In this document: positions 3,937-21,599 of the stretch, one piece after another
Layout: every line of letters starts with the position of its first letter
How positions within the stretch are numbered: the stretch's first letter is position 1
Source of the DNA: Microvirga mediterraneensis
GTDB taxonomy: Bacteria; Pseudomonadota; Alphaproteobacteria; Rhizobiales; Beijerinckiaceae
Assembly: GCF_013520865.1 (NCBI RefSeq)
Contig: NZ_JACDXJ010000001.1
Coordinates: 744,001 to 808,000, forward strand
Reading direction: 5' to 3'
DNA length: 64,000 bases
Made by a program: the position numbers and the translations under genes
Notes under the pieces: model-generated
Databases searched by the model: none
What the model saw: only the letters and a program-made list of their open reading frames with translations
What the model was told of the DNA's origin: nothing

Positions 3937-4419
3937 ATGGCCGAGAACCCGGCAAACAACGGAGCGCCCGCGCTCAACGCCCTTGCGCAGTACTGCAAGG
4001 ACTTTTCCTTCGAGAACCCCAACGCCCCCCGGTCCCTGCAGCAGCAGTCGGAAGGCCCGCAGATCAACCTGCAGGTCAACGTGAACGCCAAGCAGCTCGC
4101 GGATGCGGATTTTGAGGTCGACCTGACCCTCGAGGGCGATGCCAAGATCGGCGGCAAGGACGTATTGTTCGCCTTCGAGCTGACCTATTCGGGCGTGTTC
4201 CGGATTCAGAACATCCCGCAGGAGCAGCTGCACCCGGTGGTGATGATCGAGTGCCCGCGCCTGCTCTTCCCCTTCGCCCGCCAGATCGTGGCCGATGCGG
4301 TGCGCAACGGCGGCTTCCCGCCCCTCTACATCGACCCGATCGACTTCGTCGCCCTCTACCGCCAGCGCGCCGCCGAGGTGCAGGCCCAGCAGAATGGCGC
4401 CGGTCCGACGCTGTCGTAA
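3937..4419 (+). CDS. secB: Protein-export chaperone SecB
   Basis: SecB is a cytoplasmic tetrameric chaperone that keeps preproteins unfolded and hands them to SecA. The 160-residue product has the normal family length and the SecB fold segments ([26 protein letters not shown]; a central [17 protein letters not shown]; and [20 protein letters not shown] followed by [17 protein letters not shown]). It is a single-gene unit divergent from the Tim44-like gene and followed by a strong intrinsic terminator. The start ATG is preceded by the purine-rich sequence AGGGAG. Confidence 0.97.
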
Positions 4420-7372: not shown

Positions 7373-8203
7373 CTATTCCGCGATGAAGCGCAGGCGATGG
7401 TCGCGATAATGGTCAATGATCGCCGCGGCCGTCTCCTCGATGGAGCGCCGGGTCACGTCGATGACCGGCCAGCCGTTGCGCGCGAACAGCCGCCGCGAGG
7501 CCGCCAGTTCCTCGGCCACGGCGTCGCGGTCCACATAGGAGGTATCGTCGTCGGCGTTGAGGCTCAGCAGCCGGTTCTGCCGGATCTGCACGATCCGCTC
7601 GGGCGTCGCCACTAGGCCGACGATCAGCGCTTTCCGGGCGGTTTCGAGAACCGACGGCGGCGGCACGCCGGGCACGAGCGGAATGTTGGCCGTCTTCAGG
7701 CCGCGATTGGCGAGGTAGACGGCCGTCGGCGTCTTCGAGGTGCGGCTCACGCCCACCAGGATCACATCGGCGTCGTCGAGATCGTGCGGCAGGTGCCCGT
7801 CGTCATGGAGGAGGGTGAAGTTCATCGCGTCGATGCGCTTGAAATATTCCGCGTTCAGCATGTGCTGCGCGCCGGGCCGGGCCGTCGAATGGGTGCCGAG
7901 ATAGGAGGAGAGCAGGGCGTGGACCGGCTCCAGCACGGAAAGGTGCGGGGAGCCCGTGTTGCGGCAGACCTCCTCGAGCCGGTGAGCCAGATCCTGCTCC
8001 ACCAGGGTATAGAGCACGATGCCCGGCGCGGTCTCGATCTCGCTGATCACGCGCTCCAGCTGCGTGTTGGAGCGCACGAGGGGATAGACATGCTCGATGG
8101 CGGCGACGCCCTCATATTGCGCCACCACCGCGCGGGCGACGGTGATCAGCGTTTCGCCGGTCGAATCCGAGACGAGATGGAGATGAAAATAGCTGCGTCC
8201 CAC
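7373..8203 (-). CDS. ppsR: Pyruvate, water dikinase / PPDK regulatory protein (DUF299, RP001 family)
   Basis: DUF299 proteins are bifunctional kinase/pyrophosphorylases that switch phosphoenolpyruvate synthetase or pyruvate phosphate dikinase off and on by threonine phosphorylation. The 276-residue protein starts with [14 protein letters not shown] and has the phosphate-binding loop [18 protein letters not shown]. The start is a GTG at 8201-8203 with a GGAG-type site upstream; no in-frame ATG fits. This is the family of the RP001 gene that flanks hemE across the origin in Caulobacter and Rickettsia. It is transcribed away from the putative oriC and is followed closely by maf. Confidence 0.94.
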
Positions 8204-8236
8204 GGCGGATGCTCTCCAGGCAAAGGAGTCGATCAG

Positions 8237-8245
8237 TGTGGATAA
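8237..8245 (-). promoter_or_regulatory. DnaA box (perfect consensus)
   Basis: The + strand reads TGTGGATAA, so the minus strand reads TTATCCACA, the consensus high-affinity DnaA-binding nonamer. It lies 34 bases from the ppsR start, at the left edge of the putative origin. Only one perfect copy is present. Confidence 0.8.
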
Positions 8246-8398
8246 AACGCTCTCATCCGGAGGTCCAGCCGAGGGGCCTGTGGGTTTCGCCTCGATCCAT
8301 CAACAGGGCTCGTCATTGTGCGAGTCCGAAAGAGCCGATTTGGGAGAATCCGGCACGAATCAGCGCCAAGAATTCGATTCATATCTGGTTAATCTTCG

Positions 8399-8413
8399 TT
8401 AACGGGCTGTTAA
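8399..8413 (+). promoter_or_regulatory. CtrA-type half-site pair in oriC (TTAA-N7-TTAA)
   Basis: TTAA, seven bases, TTAA. The second half is followed by G rather than the consensus C. A further TTAA six bases upstream (8389-8392) and one at 8417-8420 make a TTAA cluster. In Caulobacter, CtrA binds such sites in the origin to block initiation. Confidence 0.5.
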
Positions 8414-8457
8414 GCTTTAAGAATCCGGAAAGGATTGTGACACCCTCGCCCCATCCG

Positions 8458-8473
8458 TTAATGACCCGTTAAC
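8458..8473 (+). promoter_or_regulatory. CtrA-type site in oriC (TTAA-N7-TTAAC)
   Basis: An exact match to the CtrA consensus TTAA-N7-TTAAC, placed between the GANTC-rich part and the AT-rich part of the putative origin, about 110 bases upstream of the hemE start codon. It could repress initiation, hemE transcription, or both. Confidence 0.6.
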
Positions 8474-8542
8474 GGCACGGGCCGTGTGGACCGCTTGTGG
8501 ACGGGCTTGCGGCTTTGCGATTCACGGCCCAAGAGAAACATC

Positions 8543-8563
8543 AGATTCTTAGATTCAAAGATT
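8543..8563 (+). repeat. Three AGATT iterons at exact 8-base spacing
   Basis: AGATT occurs at 8543, 8551 and 8559 in phase, inside the AT-rich segment between the DnaA/CtrA-site region and the hemE start. Two copies are part of GATTC (GANTC) sites. The array is a candidate unwinding element or initiator-binding array; no protein is known for it. Confidence 0.6.
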
Positions 8564-8583
8564 ATATTTTTAAGAGAGGGCCT

Positions 8584-9621
8584 GTGAGCGAACGTCCCAC
8601 CAAAGCGATCCTCCGCGTGCTGAACGGCGAGCCGGTCTGGCCGCTTCCGATCTGGATCATGCGCCAGGCCGGCCGCTACCTGCCGGAATACCGGGAGACT
8701 CGGAAGCAGGCGGGCTCCTTCCTCGATCTCTGCTACAATCCAAGGCTTGCCGAGGAAGTGACCCTCCAGCCGATCCGGCGCTTCGGCTTCGACGCCTCGA
8801 TCCTGTTCTCGGACATCCTGGTCATTCCCCATGCGCTCGGCCAGGACGTGCGCTTCGTCGAGAACGAGGGGCCCAAGCTCGATCCGGTGACCACCGAGAA
8901 GGATTTCTCGCGGCTGGCCGACGAGCTGCCGCTGGAGCGGCTCGATCCGGTCTTCGAGACCCTGGACCGCCTGAGCAAATCTCTGCCGAAGGAGACGACC
9001 CTTCTCGGCTTCTGCGGCGCGCCTTGGACGGTGGCGAGCTACATGATCGCCGGCAAGGGCACCCCCGACCAGGCACCGGCCCGGCTCACCGCCTATCGCG
9101 ACCCCGCCTTCATGGATGCGCTGATCGACAAACTGGTGCGGGCCTCCACGGCCTATCTCATCCGCCAGATCGATGCGGGCGCCGAGGCGGTGCAGATCTT
9201 CGAGAGCTTCGGCTCGGCCCTGCCGCCCGCTCTATTCGACCGTCTGTCCCTGAACCCGATCCGCCGGATGGTGGAGGGTCTTAAACAGGCTCGTCCCCAG
9301 GCCAAGGTGATCGTCTTCGTGCGCGGGGGAGGGGCCAATCTCCATCGCTTCGCCTCGGCTGGGATCGGCGATGGGCTCGCCCTCGACTGGACCCTCGATC
9401 CGGCCGTCGTGCTGCCGACCATGCCAGACACGGTCGCGACCCAGGGCAATCTCGATCCCCTGGCGCTGATCGCCGGCGGGGCGGCTTTGACCGACGGCGT
9501 CGATCACATCCTGGGCGCGGTGCGCGGACGCCCGCACATCTTCAATCTTGGGCACGGCATCCTGCCGGAGACACCGATCGAGCATGTCGCCCAGATGATC
9601 GCTCGCGTGCGGGGAGCCTGA
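8584..9621 (+). CDS. hemE: Uroporphyrinogen decarboxylase
   Basis: HemE removes four acetate carboxyl groups from uroporphyrinogen III to give coproporphyrinogen III in haem synthesis. The 345-residue protein begins with the GTG at 8584-8586, preceded by AGAGAGG; the longer frame runs into the origin and is not needed. Diagnostic motifs are PIWIMRQAGRYLPEYR (substrate-binding Arg residues), the catalytic Asp region FDASILFSDILVIPHALGQ, GFCGAPWTVASYM, and NLGHGILPETP near the C-terminus. The hemJ start follows five bases after the stop, so the two haem genes form an operon adjoining oriC. Confidence 0.97.
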   Translation: MSERPTKAILRVLNGEPVWPLPIWIMRQAGRYLPEYRETRKQAGSFLDLCYNPRLAEEVTLQPIRRFGFDASILFSDILVIPHALGQDVRFVENEGPKLDPVTTEKDFSRLADELPLERLDPVFETLDRLSKSLPKETTLLGFCGAPWTVASYMIAGKGTPDQAPARLTAYRDPAFMDALIDKLVRASTAYLIRQIDAGAEAVQIFESFGSALPPALFDRLSLNPIRRMVEGLKQARPQAKVIVFVRGGGANLHRFASAGIGDGLALDWTLDPAVVLPTMPDTVATQGNLDPLALIAGGAALTDGVDHILGAVRGRPHIFNLGHGILPETPIEHVAQMIARVRGA

Positions 9622-17161: not shown

Positions 17162-17177
17162 TGTTTCACGTGAAACA
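17162..17177. promoter_or_regulatory. parS: parS centromere site 1
   Basis: A perfect 16-base palindrome TGTTTCACGTGAAACA, the consensus ParB-binding sequence, in the gap between mnmE and mnmG. parA and parB lie 2.7 kb downstream and the putative oriC about 8.7 kb to the left, so it is very probably a functional nucleation site for the partition complex. Confidence 0.95.
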
Positions 17178-19243: not shown

Positions 19244-19858
19244 ATGACCACCGCATCCGACCTGAATGTTTCACGTGAAACATTCGAGAAGCTGGAAATG
19301 CTCGAACGCGAGCTTCGCCGCTGGCAGGCGATCAAGAACCTCGTCGGACCGGCGACCCTGACCCAAATCTGGGACCGCCACATCGTCGATTCGCTCCAGC
19401 TTCTCGATCTCGCCCCCGGTGCCGGAACCTGGCTGGACCTCGGTTCCGGGGCCGGATTTCCCGGTCTGGTACTCGCCATCGCGGGGGCGGAGAGGGGGCT
19501 CGAGGTCCACCTTGTCGAAAGCAATTCGCGCAAATGCGCCTTCCTCCGCCACATCGCCAGGCTGACCGGCGTGTCGGCGACGGTCCATGAAGCGCGGCTC
19601 GAGACCGTGGTGCCGGGCTTCATCGGCAAGGCCGATATCGTCTCCGCCCGTGCTCTGGCATCACTCGCCATGCTGCTGGATTGGACTGCCCCCTTGTTGA
19701 AAGCGGGGACAATAGGCCTGTTTCCCAAAGGGCGGGACGTCGAGTCCGAATTGACCGAGGCGCGGAAAAAGTGGACATTCGCGGCAGAGATCCTGCCGAG
19801 CCTGACCGATTCCGAAGCCAGGATTCTTCGCATAACCTCCATCGAGAGCCATTCATGA
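19244..19858 (+). CDS. rsmG: 16S rRNA (guanine-527-N7) methyltransferase RsmG (GidB)
   Basis: RsmG methylates G527 of 16S rRNA using S-adenosylmethionine; its loss gives low-level streptomycin resistance. The 204-residue protein has the SAM-binding loop DLGSGAGFPGLVLAI and the family motifs WDRHIVDSLQLL, LVESNSRKCAFLR and VSARALASLAMLL. The start is the ATG at 19244. The second parS palindrome lies inside the gene and encodes residues near 9-13 (VSRET), so the N-terminal amino acids are constrained by ParB binding. Its TGA overlaps the parA start. Confidence 0.96.
   Translation: MTTASDLNVSRETFEKLEMLERELRRWQAIKNLVGPATLTQIWDRHIVDSLQLLDLAPGAGTWLDLGSGAGFPGLVLAIAGAERGLEVHLVESNSRKCAFLRHIARLTGVSATVHEARLETVVPGFIGKADIVSARALASLAMLLDWTAPLLKAGTIGLFPKGRDVESELTEARKKWTFAAEILPSLTDSEARILRITSIESHS
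19267..19282. promoter_or_regulatory. parS: parS centromere site 2, inside rsmG
   Basis: A second perfect copy of TGTTTCACGTGAAACA, located eight codons into the rsmG coding sequence and 2.1 kb from the first copy. ParB bound here would spread over rsmG, parA and parB and could influence their transcription. Confidence 0.95.
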
Positions 19859-20694
19859 TGACCGATCGCAACGGATCCGAAGCAGGCGCGCGTGGCGTGA
19901 CGCCACGCGTTCTCGTGCTTGCCAACCAGAAGGGGGGCGTCGGCAAGACCACGACGGCGATCAACCTCGGCACCGCGCTCGCCGCCATCGGCGAGAAGGT
20001 TCTGATCATCGATCTCGACCCGCAGGGCAACGCCTCGACGGGTCTGGGAATCGACCGCAAAAGCCGTCAGGTCTCGACCTATCACGTGCTTGCCGGGGAA
20101 GCGTCGCTGTCCGAGGCGATCACCGAGACCGTGGTGCCCGGCCTGTCGGTTGCACCTTCGACCCTCGACCTGCTCGGCGTCGAATTGGAGATCGCCAATG
20201 AGCGGAACCGCTCGCATCGGCTTCGCTCCGCAATTCAGAGCCTTTCCGGCTCCGAGGTAAGTGAACCTTTTACCTATATTTTGATCGATTGTCCGCCATC
20301 GCTCAATCTCTTGACCATCAATGCCTTGGTCGCCGCTGACGCTGTTCTGGTCCCCCTCCAATGCGAATTTTTTGCTCTGGAGGGCCTCAGCCAGCTGCTC
20401 AAGACGGTCGAACAGGTCCGTTCAGCTCTCAACCCGGACCTGTCGATCCACGGTGTCGTGTTGACCATGTTCGACCCGCGCAACAACCTCTCGGGCCAAG
20501 TGGTGGCCGACGTGCGCGAGTTCATGGGCAGCAAAGTTTACGAGACCATGATCCCGCGCAACGTTCGCGTGTCCGAGGCACCCTCGCATGGCAAGCCGGT
20601 CCTGCTCTACGATCTGAAATGCGCGGGCTCGCAGGCTTATCTCCGTTTGGCATCCGAAGTCATTCAGCGTGAACGCGCCCTGCGCGCGGCATAA
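19855..20694 (+). CDS. parA: Chromosome partitioning ATPase ParA
   Basis: ParA is the Walker-type ATPase that moves ParB-parS complexes, segregating the origin. The 279-residue protein has the deviant Walker A QKGGVGKTTTAIN at residues 23-35, the switch I region DLDPQGNASTGLG, Walker B ILIDCPPSLNLL, and conserved motifs FFALEGLSQLL and IPRNVRVSEAPSHGKP. The first ATG (19855) overlaps the rsmG stop as ATGA, indicating translational coupling; a second ATG follows directly. It is an operon partner of parB, whose start is 17 bases beyond its stop. Confidence 0.97.
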   Translation: MMTDRNGSEAGARGVTPRVLVLANQKGGVGKTTTAINLGTALAAIGEKVLIIDLDPQGNASTGLGIDRKSRQVSTYHVLAGEASLSEAITETVVPGLSVAPSTLDLLGVELEIANERNRSHRLRSAIQSLSGSEVSEPFTYILIDCPPSLNLLTINALVAADAVLVPLQCEFFALEGLSQLLKTVEQVRSALNPDLSIHGVVLTMFDPRNNLSGQVVADVREFMGSKVYETMIPRNVRVSEAPSHGKPVLLYDLKCAGSQAYLRLASEVIQRERALRAA

Positions 20695-20711
20695 AACATT
20701 TGAGAGAGACA

Positions 20712-21599
20712 ATGGCAGAAGAAGGTAAGTCGCGCCTGGGCCGTGGATTGGCCGCCCTGATCGGGGAGGTCGGGGACGAGATGGGCAACCTTGAACGCAA
20801 GGGTTTCGTGCCGCGCCACGTGCCGGTGGAGTTCCTGCGCCCGAACCCGCGCAACCCGCGCAAGGTCTTCGATGACGAGGATTTGCAGGAGCTGACCCAG
20901 TCGATCAAGGATCGCGGCATTATCCAGCCCATCGTGGTGCGATCCGTGGTGCCGGGATCAACCGAGAACTATGAGATCGTCGCCGGCGAGCGCCGCTGGC
21001 GCGCGGCGCAGAAGGCGGGCCTGCACAAGGTGCCGGTGGTCGTCGTGACCATCGACGACAAGACTTCGCTGGAATACGCGATCCTCGAAAACGTCCAGCG
21101 CGCCGATCTGAACCCGATCGAGGAGTCGGAAGGCTATTCGCGCCTGATGGTCGAGTTCTCCTACACGCAGGAGAACCTCTCGAAGATCATCGGCAAGAGC
21201 CGCAGCCACATCGCCAACATGCTGCGTCTCGCCGATCTTCCGGCCGGCGTGCGCAAGCTCCTGATGGAACGCAAGCTCACAGCCGGCCACGGTCGCGCGC
21301 TCCTGTCCGTGAAGGACCCGGTCCAGGTGGCCAAGCGCGTCATCGACGAGGGCCTGAGCGTGCGCCAAGTCGAGGAGATCGCGCAGAACGACAACGCGAC
21401 GCCCGAGAAGGCGGAGGCCAAGGCGGAAAAAGCCGCCAAGGCGGAAAAAGACCCGGATACCCGCGCGCTCGAGCGAGCCCTGCAGGACGTGCTCGGCCTC
21501 ACCGTCAGCATCGACCACAAGGCCAAGGGCGGCGAACTGCGCATCAAGTACAAGACCCTGGATCAGCTCGACGGCCTGTGCCGGCGGTTGAACCCGTAA
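20712..21599 (+). CDS. parB: Chromosome partitioning protein ParB (parS-binding CTPase)
   Basis: ParB binds parS, loads as a CTP-dependent clamp and forms the partition complex. The 295-residue protein begins with the ParA-stimulating N-terminal tail (RLGRGLAALIGEV). It then has the ParB/Srx domain with the CTP-binding box GERRWRAAQKAG near residues 92-103 and ENVQRADLNPIEE, the helix-turn-helix LSKIIGKSRSHIANMLRL, and, after a repetitive Ala/Glu/Lys linker, the C-terminal dimerisation domain ending DQLDGLCRRLNP. Two perfect parS sites lie upstream. A hairpin repeat follows its stop by 20 bases. Confidence 0.97.
   Translation: MAEEGKSRLGRGLAALIGEVGDEMGNLERKGFVPRHVPVEFLRPNPRNPRKVFDDEDLQELTQSIKDRGIIQPIVVRSVVPGSTENYEIVAGERRWRAAQKAGLHKVPVVVVTIDDKTSLEYAILENVQRADLNPIEESEGYSRLMVEFSYTQENLSKIIGKSRSHIANMLRLADLPAGVRKLLMERKLTAGHGRALLSVKDPVQVAKRVIDEGLSVRQVEEIAQNDNATPEKAEAKAEKAAKAEKDPDTRALERALQDVLGLTVSIDHKAKGGELRIKYKTLDQLDGLCRRLNP

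Follow-up and report, generated by a model that had tools for sequence, protein, structure and literature searches.

The gap between ppsR and hemE in Microvirga mediterraneensis is very probably the replication origin (oriC) of the Microvirga chromosome and, judging from comparisons of sequence, an origin of an ordinary kind. It occupies positions 8204..8583 of the window, by which we mean the whole stretch of 64,000 nucleotides analyzed here (C1:744001-808000; the assembly is 5.35 Mb long and contig C1 4.70 Mb). An origin at this place had been proposed from the letters of the window, and the proposal is supported by a conserved architecture, by synteny, by the highest combined motif score, by parS sites and parAB-type genes, and by a change of strand bias nearby.

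Organization of the ppsR-hemE gap

The gap separates a COG1806 gene from hemE, and both flanking genes match curated models. To the left, ppsR (COG1806/DUF299, the 'RP001' family; 7373..8203, minus strand) scores 343.6 bits against NF003742, whose cut-off is 225, and 161.4 against the PpsR equivalog model NF049928, under its cut-off of 350. To the right, hemE (8584..9621, plus strand, with an assumed GTG start) scores 382.8 bits against TIGR01464, whose cut-off is 302.95. The original prediction had recognized in these genes the pair that flanks the Caulobacter origin, and the model matches bear this out. Its remark that nearby genes point outward holds only roughly, since a small gene at 3937-4419 and two genes at about 11.9-15.7 kb face the gap.

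The gap is richer in AT than its surroundings, with a GC content of 0.52 compared with 0.655 for the window (48% and 34% AT, respectively). A perfect DnaA box, TTATCCACA on the minus strand (plus-strand reading TGTGGATAA), was correctly placed at 8237..8245; it is an exact match and the sole one in the window, and the whole 5.35-Mb genome contains six. Two cores of the sequence TGTGGA, at 8485..8490 and 8496..8501 (both minus strand), stand 11 bp apart, or one helical turn, as had been described. Because only one full box was seen, weaker boxes had been expected beside it, and conserved TGTG cores are in line with that expectation. In a search that covered the orientation of the box (minus strand) only, we found such cores at 8279..8284 (TGTGGG; TGTG in 39/39 and TGTGG in 28/39 of the Microvirga gaps described below), at 8317..8320 (NTGTG at columns 8316-8320 in 35/39, summing the four commonest words shown) and at 8436..8440 (TGTG in 28/39). 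DnaA sites are concentrated in the gap relative to the surrounding sequence, one as a full box and the others as cores.

Two CtrA-type sites of the form TTAA-N7-TTAA, the kind of site that the master cell-cycle regulator CtrA binds, lie at 8399..8413 (site A) and 8458..8472 (site B, followed by the predicted C at 8473). Four such sites occur in the 64-kb window against an expectation of 0.02, and two of the four are inside the gap. The AT-rich end that had been noted is the hemE-side segment 8514..8573, which we presume to be the unwinding element; it carries three AGATT repeats and, at a GC content of 0.32, is the lowest-GC 60-bp interval of the 64 kb, while the 30-bp interval at 8543 (GC 0.17) is the joint lowest of its length. 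The original prediction had not mentioned nine GANTC (CcrM-type) sites that span 8226..8556, starting at 8226, 8322, 8346, 8357, 8376, 8421, 8519, 8544 and 8552. In 2000 shuffles of the 380-bp gap the average was 2.5 such sites, and 0.05% of the shuffles reached nine. By the consensus of PMC1914354, WATCAN5WTR, an IHF-type site is absent from the gap and present in 2/39 Microvirga gaps; for this reason we file the gap as an oriC at the hemE-COG1806 locus and not as a full Cori-type origin.

Conservation within Microvirga

The closest relatives of the HemE protein are from Microvirga and are up to 97% identical to it. We aligned 39 Microvirga gaps, namely that of the window and those of 38 loci labelled Microvirga; one further locus with that label, L091, has a HemE identity of 72% and was grouped with the other 40 named loci. 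The two genes are divergent and adjacent in 78 of the 80 named loci. Both exceptions have no ppsR match, and one of them, L100, ends at a contig edge. Gap length across the genus is 373-553 bp, with the extra sequence of the longer gaps located mainly on the ppsR side.

At 8237 all 39 gaps carry TGTGGATA, the last base reading A in 18 of them and G in the other 21, and the TGTGGA cores at 8485 and 8496 are invariant (39/39 each). Exact six-base DnaA cores in these gaps are all in one orientation, with 119 occurrences of TGTGGA and none of TCCACA. A TGTGGA pair at N5 spacing is found in 39/39 Microvirga gaps, 2/40 of the other named gaps and 0/39 gaps sampled across the order; we rejected the 11-bp spacing as a general feature, since it is fixed only in Microvirga. 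Each CtrA-type site is intact in 30/39 gaps, and the right half is kept in 39/39 for site A and 36/39 for site B.

Conservation of individual GANTC sites ranges from 3/39 (8421) up to 39/39 (8519 and 8544). The total number is well above that in shuffled sequence, at 348 versus 94 in the 39 Microvirga gaps and 193 versus 89 in the 40 other named gaps. None of seven control palindromes reaches twice its expectation in Microvirga, while in the 40 other gaps controls are raised as well (AGNCT, 86 versus 46.5; ACNGT, 57 versus 37.9). The AT-rich end is a shared property too: across three sets of gaps, the GC content of the 60-bp segment that stops 15 bp short of hemE averages 0.41-0.47, compared with 0.55-0.59 for the rest.

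We also observed a nearly invariant block in Microvirga, TTGGGAGAATCCGGCACGAATC at 8340..8361, with two GAATC words 11 bp (one helical turn) apart. The arrangement GAATC-N6-GAATC occurs in 36/39 Microvirga gaps and in 1/168 other gap rows, among which two genomes are counted twice.

Motif score and partition sites

We scored 400-bp intervals by the sum of z-scores for TGTGGA cores, N7 sites (TTAA-N7-TTAA), GANTC sites and AT content, using 276 kb from our own genome and a 400-kb stretch from each of the Microvirga genomes G044, G041 and G032. The gap was the best-scoring interval in the stretches read from each of the four genomes. Its lead over the runner-up was large in three of them (39.9 versus 20.4, 45.3 versus 18.3 and 41.6 versus 14.8) and small in G044 (22.0 versus 18.8). 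On single criteria other intervals equal or exceed it: in G041, an interval at +18 kb contains 4 TGTGGA cores to the gap's 3, and in our own genome one at +173 kb equals the gap's 3 cores and the one upstream of dnaA has 12 GANTC sites versus 10.

Two exact copies of TGTTTCACGTGAAACA, which we take to be the parS consensus, lie about 9 and 11 kb to the right of the gap, at 17162..17177 just upstream of mnmG and at 19267..19282 inside rsmG; both are at the same relative place in all four Microvirga genomes. Next to them are partition genes of the parA-parB type (19891..21599, plus strand). The ParB domain scores 190.5 bits against TIGR00180 (cut-off 58.45), and the ParA-type ATPase scores under every cut-off shown. 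The gap has the proximity to parS and parAB by which a bacterial oriC is recognized.

Both the score and the parS sites bear on the possibility that the gap is merely regulatory, made up of promoter elements for hemE and ppsR, with the origin at another place, such as a point about 10-40 kb to the left. We consider this improbable, given that no other 400-bp interval in the 276-400 kb read per genome scores as high in any of the four genomes (with a small lead in G044) and that parS sites are close by. Most fits of strand bias, presented next, are on its side.

Strand bias

The minimum of the GC skew had been predicted to fall at the gap, and a minimum elsewhere, for example at dnaA, had been named as the result that would refute an origin here. 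The outcome is mixed but favorable: the sign of the strand bias changes near the gap (the main fits place the switch 7-43 kb to its left, and some fits of single genomes much farther off), and dnaA is disfavored. In the following, positions are counted from the gap midpoint in our own genome and from where the hemE match begins in the others.

Within 0-1.556 Mb, the range in which the octamer GGGCAGGG was located completely on both strands, it is in forward orientation at 23 of 81 sites to the left of the gap and at 77 of 86 sites to the right. As the genome stands, the best octamer switch is nevertheless at -31 kb, with the gap 5.0 log units below this best, and the GC minimum is at -43 kb. 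GC skew by itself is weak in this genome, ranging from -0.03 to +0.04 in samples of 12-20 kb, and is shifted left. In the three relatives most measures put the switch at -10 to -27 kb. Specifically, octamers in G044 switch at -10 to -19 kb, with the GC minimum at +172 kb; the fits in G041 are at -10 to -16 kb; and in G032 one octamer and GC skew give -19 to -22 kb and the other octamer +88 kb. A hexamer classifier, which rests on the eight hexamers (four complementary pairs) that passed its cut, reaches its minimum at -14 to -36 kb in the four genomes, in each case to the left of the gap. When corrected for gene strand, a joint fit of the four genomes is best at -14 kb (range -17 to -7) and 3.9 log units worse at 0; fitted singly with the same correction, G044 is best at +188 kb and G041 at +92 kb (range -12 to +121).

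Part of the leftward offset in our own genome is due to a local inversion. When the inverted block is restored to the usual orientation, the octamer switch comes to about -18 kb and the GC minimum to -7 kb, or to -11 kb if the block is taken to be narrower; overall, the best-fit switch is then 7-19 kb left of the gap. We infer that the residual shift reflects limited resolution and a gene composition shared among the genomes, because no region that scores comparably to the gap exists there.

The block is about 33-35 kb long (C1 ~710-745 kb, from coaA/his/hslVU to miaB), reaches into the first 0.8 kb of the window, and is inverted relative to most Microvirga. Among 40 genomes with miaB and hemE on one contig, the two genes are on the same strand in 33, on opposite strands within 14 kb in 5, and on opposite strands farther apart or on the other side in 2. 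In G038, one of the 33, 4.1 Mb separate miaB from hemE, which may be an effect of circular numbering. About 62 kb to the left of the origin in another locus we found a match to the ffh sRNA family (L032:6456-6507). In many draft Microvirga assemblies the contig stops downstream of hemE, at a distance of about 24-31 kb that corresponds to about 33-40 kb in the window; an RNA gene as the cause was rejected, as 18 such ends and 40 kb each of three relatives gave no Rfam match.

The possibility of an origin next to dnaA

We give next to no credence to an origin that adjoins dnaA (C1 ~918.6-919.7 kb), 166 kb to the right of the gap, although the region upstream of that gene resembles one. It holds a perfect DnaA box, with 12 GANTC sites and 2 TGTGGA cores in 400 bp, and its interval (C1 ~919.3-919.8 kb) has the second-best score in the 276 kb of its genome. 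The gene-corrected fit to our own genome as it stands barely separates the two places, at 3.3 log units below the best for the gap and 3.5 for dnaA. The orientation of the GGGCAGGG octamer led us to reject dnaA: 23 of the 27 sites that lie between the two places are already oriented as in the right arm, and a switch at dnaA is 18.6 log units below the best, compared with 5.0 for the gap. Undoing the inversion leaves the gene-corrected fit 10.9 log units below its best at dnaA and 2.3 below it at the gap. The joint fit has a deficit of 16.7 at +166 kb, which we do not count against dnaA, as that distance is the one in our own genome; taken alone, G044 prefers +166 kb to 0 (2.2 versus 3.1 below its best). 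The motif-rich region upstream of dnaA probably serves autoregulation of that gene.

CtrA-type sites in other families

If the TTAA pairs in these gaps were due to chance, they would favor no particular spacing. We counted 35 pairs at N7 spacing in 33 of the 40 named gaps that are not in the Microvirga set, whereas 30 other spacings average 1.1 pairs and none of them exceeds 8. A set of 39 gaps representing 23 further families of the order gave 21 N7 pairs in 20 gaps, with a mean of 0.6 (range 0-3) at other spacings, and 14 of the 23 families sampled had at least one. This set came from 40 loci chosen by hand from the matches listed, one of them without hemE; 20 of 44 family codes were left out because they had no ppsR match, were outside the matches listed or were omitted by choice. 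Three of the 20 positive gaps (L254, L272 and L275) are AT-rich, with a GC content of 0.34-0.40 at which TTAA pairs come more easily, and the N7 sites of L262 and L268 are within 30 bp of hemE. Poisson figures overstate the significance of such counts because the sequences are related, and counting families gives a fairer measure. In Microvirga itself there are 60 N7 pairs against a mean of 5.2 at other spacings, with k=3, 6, 14 and 17 also frequent because of extra TTAA words in the conserved block.

We examined two families through their best 30 loci each; G251 and G307 are counted both here and in the order set. Family f30 had a usable gap in 22 of its 30 loci, with 14 N7 pairs in 11 gaps and a mean of 0.47 at other spacings. 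Family f21, which we guess may be Rhizobiaceae, had a usable gap in all 30, with 2 N7 pairs in 2 gaps, even so slightly above the mean of 0.10 at other spacings. Among 40 loci from other orders of the class, in which the place of ppsR was taken from search coordinates and 16 showed both genes at first pass, hemE was present in 37, and 8 N7 pairs occurred in 7 gaps (mean at other spacings, 0.47).

Eight f30 loci were found without hemE beside ppsR. One of them, L318, has two N7 pairs in the 431 bp available; in the other seven, the first 600 bp upstream of ppsR contain no N7 site (0/7). The sites behave as if they had gone with hemE and could serve that gene, which favors a purely regulatory role for the gap. 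The same seven loci nevertheless retain 4-8 GANTC sites each, and six retain TGTGGA cores upstream of ppsR, and all 30 f21 gaps have hemE while only 2 have an N7 site; both observations speak against that role. In three f30 loci (L331, L340 and L341) the gene beyond the gap looks by eye like hemJ, and ppsR has kept the GANTC clusters and TGTGGA cores beside it. Family f21 keeps hemE mostly without N7 sites, which counts against a service of the sites to hemE; the f30 and f21 patterns pull the question of CtrA in opposite directions.

That question concerns a further reading, in which the gap is the origin but its TTAA-N7-TTAA sites are read by another regulator or serve only the transcription of hemE and ppsR. 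To this we assign rather less than an even chance. A motif by itself is no proof of binding, the N7 sites are absent from the seven f30 loci without hemE, and the Sinorhizobium meliloti oriC is not bound by CtrA according to excerpts of PMC4433202. Against it, the N7 spacing is that of the published CtrA consensus (PMC1914354 and PMC10225481, in excerpt) and is specific in several of our sets, and the genome has a ctrA gene with TTAACCAT in its own upstream region. The encoded CtrA orthologue scores 422.7 bits (cut-off 350), and TTAACCAT lies 118 bp before the gene, with four GANTC sites as well in the 500 bp read. A CcrM-like methyltransferase is also encoded, with a RAMA domain above its cut-off and 610 bits against the Caulobacter CcrM model, under the cut-off of 830; the 500 bp upstream of its gene contain neither TTAA-N7-TTAA nor TTAACCAT.

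Comparison with known origins

The Caulobacter crescentus origin, Cori, is likewise flanked by hemE and CC0001, a COG1806 gene, and resembles the gap in its CtrA-type TTAA-N7-TTAA sites, in having only a few DnaA sites of which most are weak, in its length of about 400 bp, and in its AT-rich part and GANTC sites (excerpts of PMC1914354, PMC4468827 and PMC3973325). The presence of GANTC in Caulobacter origins was already known (PMC3973325, in excerpt). Cori has five CtrA-type sites, whereas the Microvirga gap has two exact ones; it has G-boxes where the gap has one perfect DnaA box and TGTGGA cores; and, unlike Cori, the gap has no IHF-type site by the consensus given in the excerpted text of PMC1914354. 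The same source predicts origins in Rickettsiales, at hemE/RP001 in Rickettsia and hemE/COG1253 in Wolbachia, which share with the gap the hemE flank, the size and predicted CtrA-type sites, and in Rickettsia the ppsR (RP001) flank as well. CtrA-type origin sites outside Caulobacter had accordingly been predicted before, in Wolbachia, Rickettsia and relatives (PMC1914354, in excerpt). Rickettsia genomes are about 68-71% AT, so that TTAA pairs arise more easily by chance, whereas at the 65% GC of the present genome the spacing test is sharp.

Two species from the same order as Microvirga, S. meliloti and Brucella abortus, also have ctrA. Excerpts of PMC4433202 describe an S. meliloti oriC without CtrA motifs and unbound by CtrA, and excerpts of PMC2877005 report no binding of B. 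abortus CtrA to the origin; in contrast, exact CtrA-type sites are present in the Microvirga gap and in 14 of 23 families. A review, as far as its excerpt goes, states that CtrA-type sites are not seen in most related origins; PMC8116508 and PMC4588119 are further sources, likewise cited from excerpts. Among the matches listed in a search of titles and abstract openings in the open-licence literature, we found no study of the Microvirga or Methylobacterium oriC or of CtrA sites across Hyphomicrobiales origins. We put at even chances the proposition that CtrA sites at the origin go far back in Hyphomicrobiales and are widely retained there, rather than being peculiar to Caulobacter, that S. meliloti and Brucella, on which most is known in the order, would represent losses, and that CtrA would gate oriC in Microvirga and many of its relatives.

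A model for initiation

From the sequence we infer the activity of the origin, the action of DnaA, CtrA and CcrM on it, and the site of unwinding. DnaA would bind the strong box on the ppsR side together with the weaker TGTG cores in the same orientation, which end in the TGTGGA pair, and the bound DnaA would open the AT-rich stretch beside hemE. Phosphorylated CtrA may block or tune initiation from the two TTAA-N7-TTAA sites, which stand between the two DnaA clusters. The GANTC cluster could mark newly copied origins through their hemimethylation by the CcrM-type enzyme.

Implications

Microvirga is a genus of soil bacteria that also includes root-nodule bacteria. A location for its oriC would open replication, gene dosage and cell-cycle control to study in this genus. 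The part worth following is the conservation of N7 CtrA-type sites across the order: families in which the sites are kept and families in which they are lost would provide a contrast for testing how control of the origin by a two-component regulator is gained or lost.
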